A stretch of DNA of 64,000 nucleotides from positions 496,001 through 560,000 of the forward strand of contig JAIUOE010000002.1 in assembly GCA_020161395.1 (NCBI GenBank), read 5' to 3'. The DNA is from Bacteroidota bacterium (GTDB lineage Bacteria; Bacteroidota; Ignavibacteria; Ignavibacteriales; Ignavibacteriaceae). A program made the translations under genes and the position numbers. Below, piece after piece: positions 1,325 to 64,000 of this stretch (within the stretch, counting starts at the first letter, position 1; every line of letters starts with the position of its first letter). The notes beneath the pieces were generated by a model that worked only from the letters and a program-made list of their open reading frames with translations, searched no databases and had not been told where the DNA came from.

Positions 1325-1376
1325 ATACTCAGGTACTCAAGTACTCAGGTTCTCAGATACTCAAGTACTCAGGTTC
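1325..1376. repeat. 8-bp period repeat array at the 3' end of the GT2 gene
   Basis: Six to seven degenerate octamers follow one another. Read on the minus strand they are GAACCTGA, GTACTTGA, GTATCTGA, GAACCTGA, GTACTTGA, GTACCTGA, then GTATTTTT. The stop codon TGA of the glycosyltransferase (1369-1371) lies in the first unit. All units have the same orientation, unlike the arrays at 9.3, 61.4 and 63.4 kb. The array ends in a T run on the minus strand, which might assist termination. Confidence 0.85.
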
Positions 1377-2184
1377 TTGTAATCCCAAAAGGTGTGAAAG
1401 CATTCCTTTCTCTTTTTACCTGATCAAAAAGATCGAGGTTTTCCTGCGGGCGGGGTTGGAGTTTGTGATTGAGGTGGTATTGTACAGCGATATGATTTAA
1501 TGATTTGACTTTTATCCCCAGAAGTTCGAGCCGGTATTGTATGTCAGAGTCTTCACCCACAGATGCAGCTTCGTAGCGTTCATCAAATCCATTCACTCGA
1601 AGGAGGTCTTCGCGGTAGAGGCCAAAGTTACAGCCGACAATTCCCCTTTTCTTCCTGTTAAAGAATTTAAGAATCTGCCGGTTTTCAGAATAAAAACCTT
1701 TTTCGACATCGAATGAGTCTCCGAAAAGTCCATCCAAAACAACTTGAGTAAAATTTTTCTCAAGCCATCCAGCTTTTACATTTTCAGGTGTCAGTTGCCG
1801 TGTAATCTTGTCAGAGAGGTTAACTCTTCTCCCCGTCAGAGCGACACCATATGATCTGTGGTTCAGATATCCAGACACAAATTTTGCATGTGGAATACAA
1901 TCGCCATCCACAAAGATTATATAATCTGATCGGGCTGCCGTAATCGATTTATTGAGGATTTTGTTTTTTCGGAATCCTTTATCGGGATGCCACAGGTGGA
2001 GGAGAGGGAAAGAAGTGTTGCCTCCCATTTTTTCCACATGCCTGACCACATCGGGAGGCGAACCATCGTCGGCAATTATCACCTCAAAATCTTTGTTGTC
2101 CTGTCTTTCAAAACCGGAAAGTACAAGTTCGAGATATTTCAGATTTTTGTAAAATGAGATAATTACCGACGATGTGATTTTCAA
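1369..2184 (-). CDS. Glycosyltransferase family 2
   Basis: This 271-residue GT-A fold enzyme transfers a sugar from a nucleotide donor. Near the N-terminus are SSVIISFYKNLKYLELVL and IIADDGSPP. The metal-binding DxD motif is FVDGDC (about residues 93-98). The galactosyltransferase-like C-terminal motif GFDERYEAASVGEDSDIQYR (about 209-228) is present. The start is a TTG directly abutting the stop of the upstream protease gene, with AAAGGA about ten bases upstream; no ATG gives a complete domain. The last codon and the stop lie in an 8-bp repeat array. The acceptor is unknown, but a cell-surface glycan is likely. There is no membrane segment. Confidence 0.88.
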   Translation of the reverse strand: MKITSSVIISFYKNLKYLELVLSGFERQDNKDFEVIIADDGSPPDVVRHVEKMGGNTSFPLLHLWHPDKGFRKNKILNKSITAARSDYIIFVDGDCIPHAKFVSGYLNHRSYGVALTGRRVNLSDKITRQLTPENVKAGWLEKNFTQVVLDGLFGDSFDVEKGFYSENRQILKFFNRKKRGIVGCNFGLYREDLLRVNGFDERYEAASVGEDSDIQYRLELLGIKVKSLNHIAVQYHLNHKLQPRPQENLDLFDQVKRERNAFTPFGITRT

Positions 2185-9323: not shown

Positions 9324-9395
9324 GTACCTCAGAACCTCAGCACTTCAGAACCTCTGTATCTCCGGAGTTCTGAAGTTCTGAATCTCTGAAGTTCT
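9324..9395. repeat. 8-bp period array with central orientation switch, overlapping the cdd stop
   Basis: Nine contiguous octamers are GTACCTCA, GAACCTCA, GCACTTCA, GAACCTCT, GTATCTCC, GGAGTTCT, GAAGTTCT, GAATCTCT and GAAGTTCT. The left units are near reverse complements of the right units, so the strand can fold; for example 9346-9354 pairs with 9372-9380 with one mismatch or wobble. The minus-strand stop TAG of cdd (9394-9396) starts in the last unit. Confidence 0.9.
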
Positions 9396-55939: not shown

Positions 55940-56662
55940 CTATTGAACACCAAGCTTGATAAGGTTGATCATCTCTCTTACCGCATTATCGATTCCGACA
56001 AACATGGCTCTGGCGACTACTGCATGACCGATACTTACTTCATCAATCGTATGAATTGATCTGAAAAGTTTGATGTTGTGATAATCGAGTCCATGTCCGG
56101 CGTTTACAACAAGACCGTTTTTATGAGCGTAAAGCGCCGCAGCTTCAATCTTGTCGAGCTCCTCCACTATCTTTTCCTCCGTTTTTGCTTCGGAATAAAC
56201 TCCCGTATGAATTTCAATCATGTCAGCACCCGACTCGAGGGCTGCGTCAATCTGCTCATTCAACGGTTCAATGAAGAGTGAAACCTTTATTCCGGCATCT
56301 TTCAATCTCTTGTTGCAATCTTTGAGAGACTGAAGATTTGCGATCACATCAAGTCCCCCTTCAGTGGTCAGTTCCTGCCTCTTCTCAGGGACTATGGTTG
56401 CCATTTCAGGTTTAATTTCGCAGGCAATTTTGATAATCTCATCATTTGCTGCCATTTCAAGGTCGAGCTTCGTTTTCACTAATTGTCTCAGTAAAATTAC
56501 ATCTCTGTCCTTGATATGTCGCCTGTCTTCACGCAGGTGAACAACTATTCCATCCGCACCTGCCTGTTCTGCAATCAGAGCAGCTAAAACAGGGTCGGGC
56601 TGGCTGCCACCCCTGGCATTTCTTATGGTTGCAAAATGATCTATATTTAAGCAAAAACGCAT
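55940..56662 (-). CDS. pdxJ: Pyridoxine 5'-phosphate synthase
   Basis: PdxJ closes the pyridoxine ring from deoxyxylulose 5-phosphate and aminoacetone phosphate in DXP-dependent vitamin B6 synthesis. The 240 residues show the N-terminal LNIDHFATIRNARGGSQPDP, HLREDRRHIKDRDV, VTLV-type strands, FIEPLNEQIDAALESGADMI and NAGHGLDYHNI. Length and motifs are standard. pdxA is not in the window. Confidence 0.96.
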   Translation of the reverse strand: MRFCLNIDHFATIRNARGGSQPDPVLAALIAEQAGADGIVVHLREDRRHIKDRDVILLRQLVKTKLDLEMAANDEIIKIACEIKPEMATIVPEKRQELTTEGGLDVIANLQSLKDCNKRLKDAGIKVSLFIEPLNEQIDAALESGADMIEIHTGVYSEAKTEEKIVEELDKIEAAALYAHKNGLVVNAGHGLDYHNIKLFRSIHTIDEVSIGHAVVARAMFVGIDNAVREMINLIKLGVQ

Positions 56663-56910
56663 TTCAATTTCCTTAATAATTTATTCTAACTCGAACCGTA
56701 AAGTTACAAAGGTAAAAGGTTGAATCAAAATTCAATTTTGTTCACCCGTTCGAACTTTGAATCGAAGGTTGGGGGTATCTTTTTCAGGAGGTTTAACCCC
56801 GCGCAAAATTTTGTTTGATTCGGGAACAAACTGCATTAAGTTGTTTGTATAATGAATTATTAACACTAATTTTGCAGTAATCATCAATAATAATTTAATT
56901 GGAGTATAAT

Positions 56911-57774
56911 TTGAGAAGAACGATTTTAATCTTCATAATTATGGCAAGTGTGGGCTTTGCACAACACTTCATACCTCACCTCGATAAACAGACACCAGAG
57001 TTTAAGAGTTTTTTGAAACAGTATGGCATCAAAAATTTGCTCGAAAAACTGATACCAACAGATTCAACCTTTATCGATAACTTCGACCCGGCTTCCCAAA
57101 CAATGTTTACATTTGATAAAAACGGGAACATCCTGACTGCAAAGTCAAAAGGATTTACTTATGTCAGTTCAACCGTCGACAGTTTTGTTTACAATAAATC
57201 CGGAAAACTTGAAAAAATAATTTCTTCCATGACCGAGGGACACGCTTCAGAAGGAGCCGGCATCATAAGCGTAAGAGAGTTTGTGTATTCCAAAGACAAG
57301 GGCATCATTACCAAGGTCCTTTATAAAGAGATCGAAAACGGAAAAACGAGAGACTATGGCTCTTACGATTACGAGTATGATAACAATTCGGTTCTGAAAA
57401 AAATTACCGATAACACAAAAATCGTTTTCATGGGAGAAGAGATGCCCAGCTGCGACTACATTTTCGATGCAAAAGGAAAGATGGTAAAAGAGGTTTCCAC
57501 TGCCCGTATAGCCGAGCACAAATACGATGCTGCAGGCAGAATTCTGGAAACCATCGAGAGCGTTGAAGGACTCGACCCCTACACCATCACATATACTTAT
57601 GACAATGATGGCAAATTGTTAAGCAAAAAAAGCAGAAGTGAAACCTCATTCGGTGATGCTAAATATCAGTATGCAGCTACGGGAGTTCTTTCATCAATTG
57701 AGGAGAAATGGGTTTATGGATACGACATTCCCTCCACATATTTTGTTACTCAATACTGGTTTAATGTAGATTAA
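56911..57774 (+). CDS. Exported protein with YD/RHS-like repeats
   Basis: The 287-residue protein has a signal peptide (RRTILIFIIMASVGFAQ). The start is TTG 56911, chosen because GGAG lies six bases upstream; an in-frame TTG at 56899 is the alternative. From residue ~65 on, a repeat of about 25-40 residues recurs with a (Y/F)Dxx(G)K core: FDKNGNILTA, YNKSGKLEKI, YDNNSVLKKI, FDAKGKMVKEV, YDAAGRILET, YDNDGKLLSK. This resembles YD (RHS) repeats, as in bacterial surface proteins. It lacks a sorting domain, so a periplasmic or outer-membrane-associated place is likely. Function is unknown. Confidence 0.75.
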   Translation: MRRTILIFIIMASVGFAQHFIPHLDKQTPEFKSFLKQYGIKNLLEKLIPTDSTFIDNFDPASQTMFTFDKNGNILTAKSKGFTYVSSTVDSFVYNKSGKLEKIISSMTEGHASEGAGIISVREFVYSKDKGIITKVLYKEIENGKTRDYGSYDYEYDNNSVLKKITDNTKIVFMGEEMPSCDYIFDAKGKMVKEVSTARIAEHKYDAAGRILETIESVEGLDPYTITYTYDNDGKLLSKKSRSETSFGDAKYQYAATGVLSSIEEKWVYGYDIPSTYFVTQYWFNVD

Positions 57775-57806
57775 AGTTGTTATTAATACTCTCTTTATCA
57801 GGTTCC

Positions 57807-57836
57807 AGGGTGTTCAGGAATCTTCCTGTTCACCCT
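57807..57836. terminator. Hairpin between convergent genes
   Basis: AGGGTG/CACCCT and CAGGA/TCCTG helices stack around a TT/TT internal mismatch and an ATCT loop. The hairpin lies in the 62-bp gap after the YD-repeat gene and before the end of the 316-residue gene, and could end transcription from both sides. Confidence 0.55.
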
Positions 57837-58787
57837 TCATTGTTTTAAAAGTCTCTCCACAAAAGCATCAGAGTTAAATTTATCTGAAAGTTCTGTCATA
57901 TATTCATTCAGTCTCTTTTCGGATTCGAGCATGGCAAGAAATTCTTTGAGTTCGTCAAACTCCCTTACTTGTTTTGGTTTATCAATCTTTCTTGCACCAA
58001 GTTCCCTGACAAACGCTGTATATTCCGCAAATATTTCATGTCCTTTGTGCAGTTCCTTAAAATCCAGCACATCTTCAGACACAACATCCAAAATATGTTT
58101 GAAGAATTCATGATCTCCAAGTTTTATCATTCTTTCAAGAAGCCAGTGATCAAGTTTGAACACCCGGGAGACATGAAAGTCGGATATCCCTGAAAACATT
58201 GGGTCATTTCTTCTTGGATCGGGCTTAATACAAATCGATGCCGCGGTAAAGAATCCAAGATAAGTCAACATCCAGCTTTTCTCTTTCTCTTCCTTCTCAT
58301 AAAGTTTTACCAACCCCATCTCCTTAAGTGAGGAGATCGCAAATCTGAGATTGGTTTTACAGCGAGTGGCACCTGAAGCAGTTATCGCAATATCAGCGAA
58401 AGTAAGACTTCTCTCTTTGTGGAAATCGATAAACCTGTCAATTATCTCGAAGAGGTTACACTGCTGTTTATAGAGTTCATTAAAATGGGTGAGAAGATAA
58501 ACCAACAGCCAGTATTGATAATCAATCTCGCTTATTGACCGTTCAAGCTCCGAGTCCTCGTTATTGAAGATGTCCCTGTTTACCCAGAAAAAACTCTTGG
58601 ATATTCTCTCTGAAAAGATTTTAGCATTATATGAAGTCAGGTGGTGTTTCGCCTTTATCTGTTCAAGCTCTCCCTCAATCAGATAAATAAGATGTTTTAC
58701 ATAAGTCTCCTCACCGGGGTGGAGTTTCTCCTTCTGCACAGCAATCAGAAGGTCTTCCAGTTTGTTTAAGAGGTCGAAAGCAGGCAT
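57837..58787 (-). CDS. Uncharacterised protein with central winged-helix-like segment
   Basis: I do not recognise the 316-residue protein. It is soluble, helical and highly charged. Residues ~105-180 look like a winged helix-turn-helix: FEIIDRFIDFHKERSLTFADIA, here in two parts, then SGATRCKTNLRFAISSLKEM and GLVKLYEKEEKEKSWMLTYLG as the wing. That suggests DNA binding. The C-terminal ~130 residues are helical with FDELKEFLAMLESEKRLNEY. It lies alone between convergent and codirectional neighbours. A transcriptional regulator is possible. Confidence 0.7.
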   Translation of the reverse strand: MPAFDLLNKLEDLLIAVQKEKLHPGEETYVKHLIYLIEGELEQIKAKHHLTSYNAKIFSERISKSFFWVNRDIFNNEDSELERSISEIDYQYWLLVYLLTHFNELYKQQCNLFEIIDRFIDFHKERSLTFADIAITASGATRCKTNLRFAISSLKEMGLVKLYEKEEKEKSWMLTYLGFFTAASICIKPDPRRNDPMFSGISDFHVSRVFKLDHWLLERMIKLGDHEFFKHILDVVSEDVLDFKELHKGHEIFAEYTAFVRELGARKIDKPKQVREFDELKEFLAMLESEKRLNEYMTELSDKFNSDAFVERLLKQ

Positions 58788-58872
58788 AAAAATTCCAAAA
58801 GTATTCGATTAAATTTAGAAATAATTTTTCTATTCCTGAAAGCAAATCCCATTTCCCGTTAAAAAGTATTTC

Positions 58873-59583
58873 CTATAGCATGTCCAACAGTAAAAAATCA
58901 TTGTGAGAATACTTTTTCTCATCAGAATGAAGGTTTTTGTCGTCATATTTGCAAACTTTCAGAAGAGGACAATGGATGCAATCCGGATTCTGCGGTCTGC
59001 AAAACTCCCTTCCAAGCAAAATCAGATTACTGTGAAAACTGTGAGCGAGCCCTTCGGGTATTTTTCCAAACAACAGTCTGAAAGTCTTTTCCGGCTGATT
59101 GCTTTTCACAAGTCCAACCCGGTTAACTATTCTGTTCACATGTGTATCCACAGGACAAACATTCCGTCTCAATGAAAAAAGCAGGACACAGGAAGCAGTC
59201 TTTACACCAACCCCCTTGTACGAGGTAAGCTCATCCAGAATTTCAGTATCCCCCATCCTCTTGGTGTGCTCGAGATTCAGGGTCCCCCGTTTTTCTTTCA
59301 AATCGTTCAAAACCTCAAGTATGGCAGCCGATTTCTGCTTCCCCAATCCGGCAACTTTTATTTGGTTCTCCAAATCCTCCCGGTTTAACTGTCTGACCTC
59401 TTCCCAATCCCTGAAATTTTCCTTAAGATTTTTGTAAGCCTTCCACGAATTCTTGTCATTTGTGTTCTGCGACAATATCGTTCCAATCAGCACATCCAAC
59501 GGATCCTGAAAATTGTCACTTCGTACGGGCTCTCCGTAATATTCACGGAGCAAACTGTCTATCTTTTTAATTTTTGTTTTCAT
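58873..59583 (-). CDS. nth: Endonuclease III-family DNA glycosylase
   Basis: This enzyme removes damaged bases (usually oxidised pyrimidines) and cuts the abasic site. The 236 residues from MKTKIKKIDSLLREYYGEPV contain the FGT-like DPLDVLIGTILSQNTNDKNS, the helix-hairpin-helix SYKGVGVKTASCVLLFS with the catalytic Lys, PVDTHVNRIVNRVGLV with the catalytic Asp, and the iron-sulfur loop CRPQNPDCIHCPLLKVC (Cx6Cx2Cx5C). Upstream the frame stays open for 92 codons through a 9-bp repeat array that would encode repeated Val-Ser-Gln; I reject that extension. Assignment as Nth rather than a near relative (MutY lacks Lys) is sound. Confidence 0.92.
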   Translation of the reverse strand: MKTKIKKIDSLLREYYGEPVRSDNFQDPLDVLIGTILSQNTNDKNSWKAYKNLKENFRDWEEVRQLNREDLENQIKVAGLGKQKSAAILEVLNDLKEKRGTLNLEHTKRMGDTEILDELTSYKGVGVKTASCVLLFSLRRNVCPVDTHVNRIVNRVGLVKSNQPEKTFRLLFGKIPEGLAHSFHSNLILLGREFCRPQNPDCIHCPLLKVCKYDDKNLHSDEKKYSHNDFLLLDML

Positions 59584-59601
59584 ACCGGGGTCTTTGGGAA
59601 A

Positions 59602-59756
59602 TTTGAGAAAATCGAGAGACTTGAGAAACTTGAGAAACCTGAGAAACTTGAGTACTTGAGAAACTTGAGAAACTTGAGAAACTTGAGAAACTTGAGAAAC
59701 TTGAGAAACTTGAGAGACCTGAGAAACTTGAGAGACCTGAGAAACTTGAGAGACCT
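59602..59756. repeat. 9-bp period minisatellite (GAGAAACTT units), upstream of nth
   Basis: About 16 units of GAGAAACTT, with variants GAGAGACCT and GAGTACTT, run head to tail in the nth-glmM gap. The 9-bp period keeps the minus-strand nth frame open, encoding Val-Ser-Gln repeats. The related array at 59927-60039 lies in the opposite orientation. Confidence 0.93.
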
Positions 59757-59764
59757 GGACTACA

Positions 59765-59851
59765 AGTTCTGAGATCCGAAATACTGAGGTTCTGAAGTTT
59801 CGAAGTTCCGAAATACTGATGTTCCGAAGTTCTGAAGCTCCGAAGTTCCTT
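59765..59851. repeat. 8-bp period array (GTTCTGAA/GTTCCGAA units)
   Basis: About ten octamers directly follow the 9-bp array: GTTCTGAG, ATCCGAA (one base short), ATACTGAG, GTTCTGAA, GTTTCGAA, GTTCCGAA, ATACTGAT, GTTCCGAA, GTTCTGAA, GCTCCGAA. The unit type is the same as in the arrays at 9.3 and 61.4 kb, here in one orientation only. Confidence 0.9.
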
Positions 59852-59926
59852 TGAATCAAATAAGTTTGTTATTTTTCCTTCTCAAAATTACAAAAATACT
59901 TTACTTGTAAAATAATTAACAAAAGA
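59852..59926. other. AT-rich centre of the divergent nth-glmM gap
   Basis: This 75-bp AT-rich stretch is the only non-repeat part of the 469-bp gap between nth (start 59583) and glmM (start 60053). It is the likely site of divergent promoters, but I see no convincing promoter box. Confidence 0.5.
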
Positions 59927-60039
59927 GTTCTCAAGTCTCTCGAGTTTCTCAGGTACTCAAGTCTCTCAAGTCTCTCTGGTACTCAAGTTTCTCAGGTACT
60001 CAAGTCTCTCGAGTCTCTCGAGTTTCTCAAGTCTCTCAA
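59927..60039. repeat. Inverted counterpart array (CTCAAGT/TCTCGAG units) upstream of glmM
   Basis: About 13 units of mixed 8 and 9 bp, such as TCTCAAGTC, TCTCGAGTT, TCTCAGGTA and CTCAAGTC. They are the reverse complement of the GAGAAACTT-type units on the other side of the gap. The array ends 13 bases before the glmM start codon; the glmM ribosome-binding site AAGGAG follows it directly. Confidence 0.92.
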
Positions 60040-60052
60040 AAAAGGAGTTTTC

Positions 60053-61402
60053 ATGCCCACATTGATGGTCAGCATATCAGGAATCAGGGGAATTGTAGGC
60101 GATGGTCTCGATCCCGAAATACTCGTAAAATTTACATCAGCTTATGCGAAATGGATTGGAAGCGGAACCGTCGTAATCGGTCGCGATTCAAGAATTACAG
60201 GTGCGATGGTTAGCTCAATCACTGCCGGTGCCCTTAATGCACTTGGGATTAATGTGGTGGATATCGGGATTGTTCCGACTCCGACAGTTCAGTTTGCAGT
60301 TAAAACTTTAGGAGCCCAAGGCGGAATTGCGATCTCGGCAAGTCACAATCCGAATGAATGGAATGCCCTGAAACTGCTCAATTCCACAGGTCAGTTTATG
60401 TCGCCTGGGGAACACAATGAGATGAAGAAATATCTGGGGCAACCCGCTGAATACAAACCATGGGACAAAATCGGCCATACCACATTCAATTACGAAATGC
60501 TTAAAAACCATAAAGAGAAGGCACTTTTGCTTCCCTTCATCGATGTGGAGCTGATCAGATCAAAGAAATTTAAAGTTGTTGCTGATTGTGTGAATGGTGC
60601 CGGAGTTTATGTAATTCCCGAGTTGCTCCGTGACCTTGGCTGTGAAGTAATCGAATTAAATTGTGAGAAGACAGGCATATTCCCGAGATTACCCGAACCA
60701 CTCCCCGAGAACCTCGTTGAAACGATGGCAAAGGTAAAAGAAACAGGTGCTGACCTCGCCGTGGTTGTTGATCCCGATGCAGACCGCCTCGTCCTCATCA
60801 CTGACGAAGGTGAACCCTTCAGTGAAGAAAACACCATATCACATGTAGTTAAATGGGTACTTTCAAAAAATCCGGGAAATGTTGTCGTTAATCTCTCGAC
60901 CACCAGAACAGTTGACGATGTTGCCAAGGCTGCAGGTTGCGAAGTGTTCCGCTCCCCTGTCGGAGAGGCAAATGTTGTACAAAAAATGAAAGAGACCGGA
61001 GCGGTCATTGGCGGTGAAGGAAGTGGCGGTGTTATTTATCCTGCACTTCACTACGGCAGAGACTCCCTTGTTGGTGTTATCATTACACTCCAGCATCTCG
61101 CTGAATTTGGCGGAAAACTGTCCGATCTGAAACGGGCTTTGCCGCAGTACAGTATTGCTAAAAAGAAAATCGATATATCAGGTAAATCTCCTGATGAAGT
61201 TCTGACTGCCATGGTGGAAAAATATAAACACGAAAAAGTTAATACTGATGACGGTTTAAGAATCGACTTTCCGGATCATTGGGTCCATTTCAGAAAATCA
61301 AACACTGAACCAATCATTCGTGTCATAGCAGAAACCACTTCTTATGATGAAGCCGTTAAACTTTGTGAGAAATATTTCGCCGAAATAACCTCACTCTTGT
61401 AG
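60053..61402 (+). CDS. glmM: Phosphoglucosamine mutase-like phosphohexomutase
   Basis: The 449-residue enzyme belongs to the alpha-D-phosphohexomutase family and probably converts glucosamine 6-phosphate to 1-phosphate for UDP-GlcNAc and cell-wall synthesis. Motifs are SISGIRGIVGDGLDPEILVK, the phospho-Ser loop GGIAISASHNPNEWNALKLL, the metal loop VVDPDADRLVLI, GGEGSGGVIYP (typical of GlmM) and RKSNTEPIIRVIAE. A clear AAGGAG lies before the ATG. The stop TAG is shared with the first unit of an 8-bp array. It is the second phosphohexomutase in the window; the 27.9-kb gene is the ManB type. Confidence 0.92.
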   Translation: MPTLMVSISGIRGIVGDGLDPEILVKFTSAYAKWIGSGTVVIGRDSRITGAMVSSITAGALNALGINVVDIGIVPTPTVQFAVKTLGAQGGIAISASHNPNEWNALKLLNSTGQFMSPGEHNEMKKYLGQPAEYKPWDKIGHTTFNYEMLKNHKEKALLLPFIDVELIRSKKFKVVADCVNGAGVYVIPELLRDLGCEVIELNCEKTGIFPRLPEPLPENLVETMAKVKETGADLAVVVDPDADRLVLITDEGEPFSEENTISHVVKWVLSKNPGNVVVNLSTTRTVDDVAKAAGCEVFRSPVGEANVVQKMKETGAVIGGEGSGGVIYPALHYGRDSLVGVIITLQHLAEFGGKLSDLKRALPQYSIAKKKIDISGKSPDEVLTAMVEKYKHEKVNTDDGLRIDFPDHWVHFRKSNTEPIIRVIAETTSYDEAVKLCEKYFAEITSLL

Positions 61403-61474
61403 AACTTCGGAACTTCAGTACTTCAGAAACTCTGAGGTTCTGAGGTTCTGTATCTCCGAGGTTCCGAGGTTCTG
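61402..61474. repeat. 8-bp period array with orientation switch after glmM
   Basis: Nine octamers start at the last base of the glmM stop: GAACTTCG, GAACTTCA, GTACTTCA, GAAACTCT, GAGGTTCT, GAGGTTCT, GTATCTCC, GAGGTTCC, GAGGTTCT. Left and right units are near reverse complements (GGAACTTC against GAGGTTCC with one G-U pair), so the mRNA 3' end can fold into a long hairpin. There is no T run behind it. Confidence 0.92.
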
Positions 61475-61562
61475 CATAGTTTTATAACCGTTCGTCAATT
61501 AGTTTTGTTGAAATTGCGGGTCTGTGCATAATTTGGGATTCGATTTAATTAAGGATTTCAAG

Positions 61563-63410
61563 ATGCCAAGACCCGTTTTTTCAATATTGTTGTTTTTACT
61601 CCTCTATATCCCCTCAATCGTAGCCCAAAATTCAGATCTCTTTATTTTCCGTGAATTTCAAAATGCTGTAAAGAAGGGCACGCGCACCCTTGACGGTGTT
61701 CCGGGTGAAAAATACTGGACCAATTCTGCAAAATATAACATCAAAGCCTCACTCGAACCGGTAACGGGGAAAATAAGCGGAAGTGAAATAATAGAATATT
61801 CAAACAACAGTCCCGATGATCTTAAATCTCTCGTTTTCAATCTCTATCCTGATGTCTATAAAAAAGGTGCACAAAGAAATGTAAAATTTCAACCCGAAGA
61901 TATAACTGACGGCATGATAATTCATGAACTGAAAATAAATGGAGCTGATATACCCGCAGCCAAAATCCAGCGAAACAAAGCAATCGGGTTCGTAAAACTG
62001 TCTGAACCCGTTAAGAAAGGTACTTCTGCGAAAATTGAAGTCAAATGGGAATTTACCATGCCCAAAAATCCCGATGACAGAATCGGAACTTATGGTGATT
62101 CATCTTATTTCGTTGCATATTGGTACCCGCAAGTGGCAGTTTACGACGACATTTCAGGCTGGGATATGATCGGATATGAAGGTGAACACGAGTTTTACAC
62201 CGACAACAACAGTTTTGAAGTGGAGCTGAATGTACCAAACGGGATACTTGTTTGGGCAACCGGTGACCTCAAAAATGGTGCAGAAATCTATTCCAAAGAG
62301 TGCCTCAAGAAACTGGATGATCTCAAAAACCATGACAATGTAACCATCATTTGCGAACCCGGTCAGGTAAAGAATATTTTGTTGCCGGGTAAAACTCACA
62401 CATGGAAGTATCTCGCAAAAGATGTGCCAGACTTCAGTTTTACAGTGGCAAATGCCGTTAGATGGGAAGCTGTGAATCTGAAACTTGAAAACGGGAAAAG
62501 GAATATCCTTATCAACTCAGTTTATTCACCCGGCGACTCTCTCACTCCCGAAGTAACAGGGCTGTCGAAGCACATAATAAAATATTTTTCGGAAGTTTTT
62601 CCGGCAGTCCCCTATCCTTACAATTACATGACTGTCTTCAACGGAAGTGGTGGTATGGAATTTCCGATGATGGTAAACCAGGACACCGAGAATGACCGTT
62701 GGCTGACCACCTATGTTACCACACATGAAATCGCCCACATGTATTTCCCGTTTCTTACCGGTACAAATGAAAAACGGTTTTCATGGCTCGACGAAGGGAT
62801 GGCTGTTTACCTCCCTCTGAGTGAACAGACAAATATCTTCCCAGGATTGAAATACGATGAAATCAGTGCGGCAAACCTAAGCAGAAACATGGGGACTCAA
62901 AGTGATGTTCCTTTGATGGTGCCTTCCACATTTGTATATGGTCCGGCACATATGACGGGTGCCTATTCCAAATCGGGCATCGCATTCCTGATTCTTGAAG
63001 ATATCATTGGTAAAGATGCCATGCGTACTGCTCTGCAGTCTTTTATCAAAACCTGGACGCACAAACACCCGACTCCTTACGATTTTTTCTTCTCGATAAA
63101 TAAATCAACGGGTAAAAACCTCGACTGGTTTTGGAAACCATGGTTCTTCGAGTTTGGTTATCCTTCCCTGATCTTAAACGACAGCGAGGCAAACACCAAA
63201 AGAAAATTTGAGGTGATCAAAAAAGGTAACTGCCCTGTTCCGATCCACCTTGAAATTGAATACACCGACGGCTCAAAAGAAACTGTAACCAGAACTGCTG
63301 AAGTTTGGAAGAATGGAGAGAAATCAGTAACTTTCGATCTCAAAGGAAATAAAGAAGTCAAGAAAATTTCCCTTGGATCACCCAAAATACCAAATGCAGT
63401 AATCCAATAA
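61563..63410 (+). CDS. M1-family metallopeptidase, exported
   Basis: The 615-residue protein has a signal peptide (PRPVFSILLFLLLYIPSIVA). The M1 fold shows the exopeptidase loop NGSGGMEFPMMVN (variant of GxMEN), the zinc site VTTHEIAHMYFPF (HExxH) and the third ligand Glu in WLDEGMAVYLPL. The Tyr/Trp-rich substrate region is conserved (KSGIAFLILEDIIGKDAM). The ATG at 61563 is favoured by AAGGA seven bases upstream and the signal sequence; the longer frame from 61524 is less likely. Its last codons and stop lie in an 8-bp repeat array. It probably trims peptides in the periplasm. Confidence 0.93.
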   Translation: MPRPVFSILLFLLLYIPSIVAQNSDLFIFREFQNAVKKGTRTLDGVPGEKYWTNSAKYNIKASLEPVTGKISGSEIIEYSNNSPDDLKSLVFNLYPDVYKKGAQRNVKFQPEDITDGMIIHELKINGADIPAAKIQRNKAIGFVKLSEPVKKGTSAKIEVKWEFTMPKNPDDRIGTYGDSSYFVAYWYPQVAVYDDISGWDMIGYEGEHEFYTDNNSFEVELNVPNGILVWATGDLKNGAEIYSKECLKKLDDLKNHDNVTIICEPGQVKNILLPGKTHTWKYLAKDVPDFSFTVANAVRWEAVNLKLENGKRNILINSVYSPGDSLTPEVTGLSKHIIKYFSEVFPAVPYPYNYMTVFNGSGGMEFPMMVNQDTENDRWLTTYVTTHEIAHMYFPFLTGTNEKRFSWLDEGMAVYLPLSEQTNIFPGLKYDEISAANLSRNMGTQSDVPLMVPSTFVYGPAHMTGAYSKSGIAFLILEDIIGKDAMRTALQSFIKTWTHKHPTPYDFFFSINKSTGKNLDWFWKPWFFEFGYPSLILNDSEANTKRKFEVIKKGNCPVPIHLEIEYTDGSKETVTRTAEVWKNGEKSVTFDLKGNKEVKKISLGSPKIPNAVIQ

Positions 63411-63494
63411 TGCAGTAATGCAGTAATATTTCTCGATTATTGAATTATTGGATTATTGCATTATTGCATTATTGGATTATTGAATTATTGGATT
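63396..63494. repeat. 8-bp period array (GCAGTAAT/ATTATTGG) with orientation switch
   Basis: Twelve perfect-register octamers: GCAGTAAT, CCAATAAT, GCAGTAAT, GCAGTAAT, the central ATTTCTCG, then ATTATTGA, ATTATTGG, ATTATTGC, ATTATTGC, ATTATTGG, ATTATTGA, ATTATTGG. The right units are reverse complements of the left ones, allowing G-U pairs. The last five codons and the stop of the M1 peptidase are made of the first two units. The array ends six bases before the aminotransferase ATG. Confidence 0.95.
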
Positions 63495-63500
63495 AAAAAA

Positions 63501-64000
63501 ATGAAAAGTAAACTTCCCGGCGCACCCGTGTCAATTTTTGCAGTGATGTCAGCTTTGGCACGGGAGCATAATGCCATCAATTTATCGCAGGGTTTCCCTG
63601 ATTTTGATCTCGATCCTGAGCTTATTGAGTTGATGGACAGGAATATGCACGCCGGGAACAATCAGTATGCACCGATGACGGGGGTGCAGCAATTGCGGGA
63701 AGTGATCTCGGAAAAGATATTCAGAGACTATGGTCGGCATTATGACCCCAACAGTGAGATAAACATCACTTCAGGTGCCACACAGGCACTCTTTACTTCA
63801 TTTAATTCGTTCGTTTTTCCGGGCGATGAGGTTATTGTAATTGAACCGGCATACGATTCATACATCCCGTCCATTATATTGAATGGCGGAATCCCCGTTG
63901 CAATACCCCTTTATGACAATTTCAGATATGACTGGGACAGAATAAAATCAGCGGTCACTCCGAAAACAAGGATGATCGTGCTGAACTCTCCTCACAATCC
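63501..64000 (+). CDS. Class I/II aminotransferase, N-terminal part (runs off right edge)
   Basis: The visible 166 residues match the methionine/kynurenine aminotransferase group (YbdL/KAT-like) of fold-type I PLP enzymes. Motifs are INLSQGFPDFDLDPELIELM, NNQYAPMTGVQQLREVIS, INITSGATQALFTSFNSFVF (PLP phosphate contact), EPAYDSYIPSI (Tyr stacking on PLP) and MIVLNSPHNP. The Schiff-base Lys is beyond the edge. The ATG follows the repeat array after an A run with no clear ribosome-binding site. Confidence 0.93.
   Translation, partial: MKSKLPGAPVSIFAVMSALAREHNAINLSQGFPDFDLDPELIELMDRNMHAGNNQYAPMTGVQQLREVISEKIFRDYGRHYDPNSEINITSGATQALFTSFNSFVFPGDEVIVIEPAYDSYIPSIILNGGIPVAIPLYDNFRYDWDRIKSAVTPKTRMIVLNSPHN

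Follow-up and report, generated by a model that had tools for sequence, protein, structure and literature searches.

Facing arrays of short tandem repeats between nth and glmM are one copy of a dispersed, paired intergenic repeat in an Ignavibacteriaceae genome

Tandem repeats fill most of the spacer that separates an nth-like gene from glmM. They represent a single copy of a dispersed type of element, in which paired arrays of short units face one another in intergenic DNA, and they are not special to these two genes. The window analysed is a stretch of 64,000 nucleotides (contig JAIUOE010000002.1, positions 496,001 to 560,000, of assembly GCA_020161395.1), to which all positions without a prefix refer. 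It was studied together with the genome from which it comes (G000) and the three other members of a four-genome genus set (G001, G002 and G003). On balance we think it likely that these elements are inverted minisatellites, paired and dispersed, whose growth is due to slippage, which exchange sequence between loci and which are tolerated outside promoter cores. A dedicated regulatory role for nth or glmM is not needed.

The arrays were sorted into six unit families (F1-F6) with units of 7-9 bp, and the two strand forms of each family were named L and R after the array at the left or right gene edge. Features of the window and of the sites compared between genomes are collected in Table 1.

Table 1. 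Coordinates of genes, arrays and compared sites
Feature	Position	Strand or form	Unit and copies	Score or basis
HhH-GPD DNA glycosylase gene, nth-like	58873..59583	minus		profile scores, ATG at 59583
Left arm	59594..59751	F1, L form	9-bp TTGAGAAAC, 17.7 copies	TRF score 232
8-bp array between left arm and core	59764..59849	F2, R form	8-bp AAGTTCCG, 10.9 copies	TRF score 67
AT-rich core	59850..59927		78 bp	alignment with G003 and G002
Right arm, inverted relative to left arm	59928..60039	F1, R form	9-bp TTCTCAAGT, 12.8 copies	TRF score 91
glmM, phosphoglucosamine mutase	60053..61402	plus		TIGR03990
Facing pair at glmM stop	L 61401-61428, R 61431-61474	F2		RNA -36.7 kcal/mol, z -4.80
Facing pair	L 63393-63427, R 63435-63495	F3		RNA -42.4 kcal/mol, z -9.43
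Facing pair	9326..9395 (L 9326-9354, R 9366-9395)	F2
Single array, ends at right-hand gene	1326..1377	F1, R form
Sites with both arms switched between G000 and G003 (G000 coordinates)	C2:460040, C2:466460, C9:100533, C6:135381, C8:37898

Arrays, core and folding of the nth-glmM spacer

Genes were called with a simple purpose-written script. The nth/glmM arrangement is divergent, as described in the first-pass annotation. The identity of glmM is secure, its product scoring 518.7 bits against TIGR03990 (cut-off 439). The nth label holds in part: the product is an HhH-GPD glycosylase of the endonuclease III type, but its 116.8 bits fall below the NCBI endonuclease III cut-off of 211.7. Between the two ATG codons lie 469 bp, of which three arrays occupy 356, in agreement with the earlier figure of more than 350 bp of repeat. 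The 9-bp and 8-bp arrays reported on the left were both recovered by TRF, and the interval between the facing arrays, previously given as 75 bp, proved to be 78 bases long (from the array ending at 59849 to the one beginning at 59928).

TRF was also run on 200 sequences resampled from the 469-bp spacer with a first-order Markov model; the top score was 72, and scores of at least 60 arose in 3/200. Both 9-bp arrays lie beyond chance. The 8-bp array is the least secure of the three, since its score as 8-mers is reachable by chance (67 against the resample maximum of 72); with a 32-bp unit the same array scores 106, and the right arm scores 151 with a 43-bp unit. Six consecutive perfect 9-bp units run from position 59656 within the left arm. 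Comparison of the left arm with the reverse-complemented right arm gave z 43.2, against z -0.8 for the right arm read directly, bearing out the description of opposed arrays with a right array of reverse-complement type. BLAST aligned the two 9-bp arms at 85% over ~110 bp.

On the minus strand the nth-like frame stays open across the left arrays (58873-59859), yielding an ORF of 328 aa from a TTG start, and the extended frame would give the protein an N-terminal tail of VSQ repeats. Such an extension was rejected. The open frame is taken as a by-product, because the 9-bp unit is stop-free in the nth frame and the alignment with homologues starts at the ATG (59583).

The 78-bp core is conserved in G003 and partly in G002, as judged by alignment, and likely holds the divergent promoters. 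Promoters of the Bacteroidota type follow the pattern TTG, 17-20 nt, TAnnTTTG, which here occurs 4.16 times per 10 kb of intergenic sequence versus 0.63 within genes. On either strand of the core the second box alone fits, and the promoter assignment is therefore tentative. A second copy of the core was found in G000 at C9:100613-100671, with 80% over 60 bp and E 8.3e-8 (E 0.15 for the next-best genomic match), likewise flanked by F1 arms and followed by a gene that we take to encode a PLP-dependent Cys/Met enzyme. The copy is absent from the 480 bases upstream of the C9-locus gene in G003, G002 and G001, and G003 keeps the core at nth-glmM. The simplest account would be that, in the G000 lineage, the core was copied from nth-glmM into the C9 element; alternatively, two AT-rich promoters may have become alike by convergence.

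A cruciform, or long leader hairpins in both divergent mRNAs, had been proposed for this region. The strand spanning both arms folds far more stably than its shuffles (RNA z -14.53, DNA z -11.64), and a long hairpin requires both arms on one strand. If transcripts begin in the core, each leader carries one 9-bp arm only. Pieces of the nth-side leader behaved like shuffles (z -0.33 and +1.22), whereas those of the glmM side folded moderately (z -2.53 and -2.25), and on these single-arm values leader hairpins were dismissed for the nth side and are weak for the glmM side. The cruciform is conceivable on paper, given the DNA fold, but the 176 bp that separate the two 9-bp arms would be a large centre to open. 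A stem-loop with a T-run in both leaders, as expected of intrinsic terminators, was not found in the spacer, which contains one weak terminator-like site against an average of 0.7 in shuffles. No known RNA family reached its gathering threshold within 56000-64000.

Distribution and orientation in the host genome

When the spacer was used as a BLAST query against its own genome, 51 matches were returned; a plasmid search with the sequence produced no match. About one third of G000 was then covered by samples. Unclassified rows were left out before counting (59/208 in the first samples and 13/34 in fresh G000 sequence). Of 151 TRF arrays with a period of 6-10 in 1.2 Mb, 105 lie mostly outside coding sequence, intergenic DNA making up less than one tenth of the total. 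Among intergenic regions 25 bp or longer, a classified array was present in 46/359 in two unbiased samples (0.8 Mb), and in 17/160 in a third sample (0.4 Mb). The window itself contains further examples (Table 1). In its F3 pair the L arm and the end of the preceding gene overlap, the pair reaches to 5 bp before the next gene, and G003 has a pair of the same family at the same place.

Visual inspection of the first samples set the L and R labels, which were fixed before fresh sequence was scored. In G000 all 32 regions with opposite arrays read L-then-R and none R-then-L, 22 of them being pairs of one family; in G003 the corresponding counts were 5 and 1. Because L-then-R is identical on both strands, this order belongs to the pair itself and does not depend on which strand is read. 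Individual arrays also tended to show the form expected from the nearer gene edge, both in G000 (57/70 and 29/35 arrays) and in G003 (28/37), as well as in fresh sequence scored with the pre-fixed labels (18/21). Polarity was obeyed by 42/42 arrays touching a 3′ end (gap <=0), and the rule was weak for arrays separated from the gene by over 10 bp (19/33 at 3′ ends, 20/29 at 5′ ends). Considered as a possible cause of the polarity, purine skew at gene edges differed little between plain and array-bearing regions. In 400 kb from another genus (G021), 30/32 TRF rows were unclassified and the 2 classified arrays both broke the side rule.

That polarity is strictest where arrays touch 3′ ends would fit a model in which arrays arise by slippage independently at each site and are oriented by translation alone, through stops at 3′ ends and avoidance of start signals at 5′ ends. 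A stop codon is indeed present in the L forms of F1, F3, F4 and F6, and constraint by stop codons may account for some of the 3′ rule in these families. It does not extend to F2 and F5, whose L forms are stop-free, nor to divergent regions, where the same arm order is found (4 in the G000 sample). Independent slippage would also leave unexplained why one unit recurs at many loci of one genome, and we regard it as highly improbable.

Array-bearing regions were most frequent between convergent genes (19/78) and least frequent between divergent ones (6/105), with 11/111 and 27/225 in the two co-directional classes. The abundance in convergent regions raises the possibility that a facing pair acts as a terminator or 3′-end protector by forming a hairpin in the RNA when transcription passes through. 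Compact pairs do fold very well as RNA (z -9.43 for 63393-63500, -4.80 for 61401-61500 and -6.54 for a pair in C6), and the strict polarity at array-touching 3′ ends is consistent with such a function. However, the divergent nth-glmM pair does not fit, and regions with arrays are richer in canonical terminator-like sites than regions without (31/74 versus 82/384, P 0.00035), although array hairpins may be counted among these sites. A role in ending or protecting transcripts seems unlikely. The related idea that array hairpins replace terminators was rejected on the same counts, array regions being richer and not poorer in terminator-like sites.

Unit differences between related genomes

Among named genomes, those closest to the host are MAGs that carry the labels Chlorobiota CHB2 and Ignavibacteriaceae SB14. 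Matches to F1/F2 were detected in 3/59 genomes, all within this genus. At nth-glmM, facing arrays are present in 3/4 genomes of the genus, with different units. G003 has the same order of shorter, 8-bp arrays (TGAGTACC, TTCCGAAG and ACTCAGGT), with 4.5 and 3.6 copies compared with 17.7 and 12.8 copies of the 9-bp units in G000, and in G002 the left array is ATGAACTT and the right one GTTCTTAA. In G001 the spacer has one AT-rich TRF row and no facing arrays, which are also absent from the divergent nth-glmM pair in 14 non-genus locus records (some perhaps representing one genome twice). The earlier suggestion of active slippage is upheld in so far as copy numbers differ between species and six perfect units stand in a row, the comparison being one between species only. 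More generally, spacers with arrays changed in length between G000 and G003 by a median of 9.5 bp (n=24), versus 0 for those without (n=70; P 0.0026).

Such length differences invite the interpretation that the arrays form a contingency locus whose length alters nth and glmM expression, in line with the suggestion of the first-pass annotation that slippage might tune a DNA-repair gene and a cell-wall gene. Each arm sits between the core and one of the start codons, and the moderate fold of the glmM-side leader could be read in the same way. Against local tuning of nth and glmM, arrays of the same kind adjoin many unrelated genes, and divergent regions are seldom used, convergent ones being preferred. 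Moreover, the nth-side leader pieces lack a fold, the 9-bp leader units switch no reading frame, and G001 and the 14 non-genus records retain the divergent gene pair without facing arrays. We therefore think this very unlikely to be what the arrays are for.

Nine F1 loci of G000 obtained from the spacer BLAST, and picked because they carry F1 in that genome, were compared with G003. At 5/9 of these sites both arms had switched, from F1 in G000 to F2-type in G003, with conserved flanks (Table 1). Among the remaining loci, nth-glmM kept F1 in a form that is shorter in G003, one single array shrank, the C3 locus was mixed in G003 (an F4-type left arm with a short right remnant), and the C13 locus of G003 showed no F1 arm within the 700 bases viewed. 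In an unbiased 400 kb, 2/8 F1/F2 sites had switched between the two genomes, and at F3 and F4 sites the unit was mostly unchanged. In places a mere few bases separate F1 from F2 units (GAGTACCT/CAGTACCT), which leaves some room for parallel change.

Left arms of G003 resembled one another with a median z of 6.8 (n=15). Compared with their G000 orthologues they gave z 0.0, 1.5, 1.7, 2.9 and 3.4, and 13.9 at nth-glmM, and were thus closer to one another than to the orthologue at 5/6 loci. The between-loci median within G000 (z 13.8) is not an independent measure, since these loci were picked for F1. Some arms scored strongly in direct as well as inverted comparison (13.1 versus 7.8 for C2:466460 in G003; 11.2 versus 16.0 for C2:460040 in G000), an effect of dividing the arms at the midpoint.

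At C2:459775-460270 in G000 and C2 ~984400-984900 in G003, the spacers are near-identical up to the element and then continue into F1 and F2 arms, respectively. By eye only, the shared part of these spacers resembles a cobalamin riboswitch.

Exchange between loci and relation to known repeats

In the account that we favour, of paired minisatellites exchanging between loci, facing arrays of 7-9 bp units present the same form outward to either flanking gene, and slippage would lengthen and shorten the arms. Units, and sometimes the DNA between arms, would be swapped between loci by gene conversion or by copying among similar arrays, and the loci of one genome would be alike because of this exchange. 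Purifying selection would restrict the arrays to spacer sequence outside coding regions and promoter cores. Together these processes would account for most of the observations. In the nth-glmM spacer, a promoter region of old, shared origin would have stayed as the core, with arms growing on either side. The joint swap of both arms is the new part, and its mechanism is inferred. More tentatively, the arrays could be viewed as repeat dialects, in which species share place, polarity and pairing but the unit of both arms is replaced at many loci within a lineage, as a bacterial counterpart of the concerted evolution of satellite DNA; exchange could then also carry a promoter core, as from nth-glmM to C9. 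The DUS dialects said to exist in Neisseria offer a loose analogy.

Several known repeats share features with these elements. In the available part of their description, heptamers of Xanthomonas and Nostoc (GGGAATC and GGGGA(C/T)T) form intergenic tandem arrays with inverted convergent pairs (70 in Xcc, 75 in Xac), are under-represented in divergent regions and differ in length between related species (PMC4692102). The arrays reported here likewise consist of short units, are mainly intergenic, and form inverted pairs of fixed polarity that are read outward, with convergent pairs and an outward preference as in that account (PMC4692102). Whereas the heptamers, as presented there, are one G-rich family capable of forming quadruplexes, there are six families here and none of their units contains a GGG tract; the switch of both arms to another unit from one species to the next is likewise a feature of the present arrays and not of the heptamers so described (PMC4692102). 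Short intergenic repeats with outward polarity have so far been described family by family, and here six are placed under one rule. Since these six have different periods, neither quadruplex formation nor any other single sequence-specific cause is the general reason for the rule. The differences in both arms between sister species provide a natural experiment on repeat exchange and on the travel of promoters.

Paired tandem sites of octa- and heptanucleotides, with three to five repeats each, have been proposed to bind IHF/HU in Geobacter metallireducens, according to the portion of that report at hand (PMC2700814). They resemble the present arrays in being numerous short tandem repeats, mostly in opposite-strand pairs at variable distance; the change of unit is a feature found here, and that portion of the report contains no comparison of units between species (PMC2700814). 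By extension, our arrays might be binding sites for a nucleoid or other DNA-binding protein, with the unit tracking the specificity of the protein, and their pairing, fixed polarity and species-specific units would fit this proposal as the Geobacter precedent does. Yet six unit families with different periods coexist in one genome and copy number varies freely, which makes a binding-site function seem improbable to us. In Beggiatoaceae, and also in some Bacteroidetes, TAACTGA heptamers are abundant as intergenic tandem arrays for which a post-transcriptional role has been proposed; as far as the accessible text goes, these usually occur as single arrays a short way ahead of start codons, with one indirect repeat, in contrast to the facing pairs seen here (PMC4679880). 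Among the papers listed in searches on Ignavibacter, no title or abstract opening deals with such repeats, which is no proof of absence.

REPINs, in the section of the literature consulted, are inverted doublets of palindromic REP units served by their own transposase, RAYT (PMC3116915). Like the present elements they are hairpin-forming inverted pairs that lie in extragenic DNA and spread through a genome (PMC3116915), but each arm here is a tandem array of 7-9 bp units. If the arrays were REPIN-like miniature elements moved by a RAYT, their inverted pairing in intergenic DNA would be expected, and the genome does contain three Y1_Tnp matches, one of which (C13) lies between F1 arms. The repeats adjoining that transposase are, however, a different palindrome bearing GGGTAG, and the F1 units there carry no GTAG-type tag of the kind found on REP palindromes. 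In addition, the C13 orthologue in G003 lacks F1 arms in the 700 bases viewed, and tandem units of 7-9 bp are not single palindromes of 20-40 bp. Mobilization of this kind is, in our judgement, a poor prospect, and exchange among similar arrays remains the preferred reading.

At C3:147292-148062 in G000 (L154), F1 arms enclose ~640 bp that have inverted ends of their own and terminator-like hairpins, and G003 carries related DNA with other arms at this site. At C13:28186-29673 (L144), the Y1 transposase gene has GGGTAG palindromes on both sides and lies with them inside F1 arms; the transposase is also present in G003.
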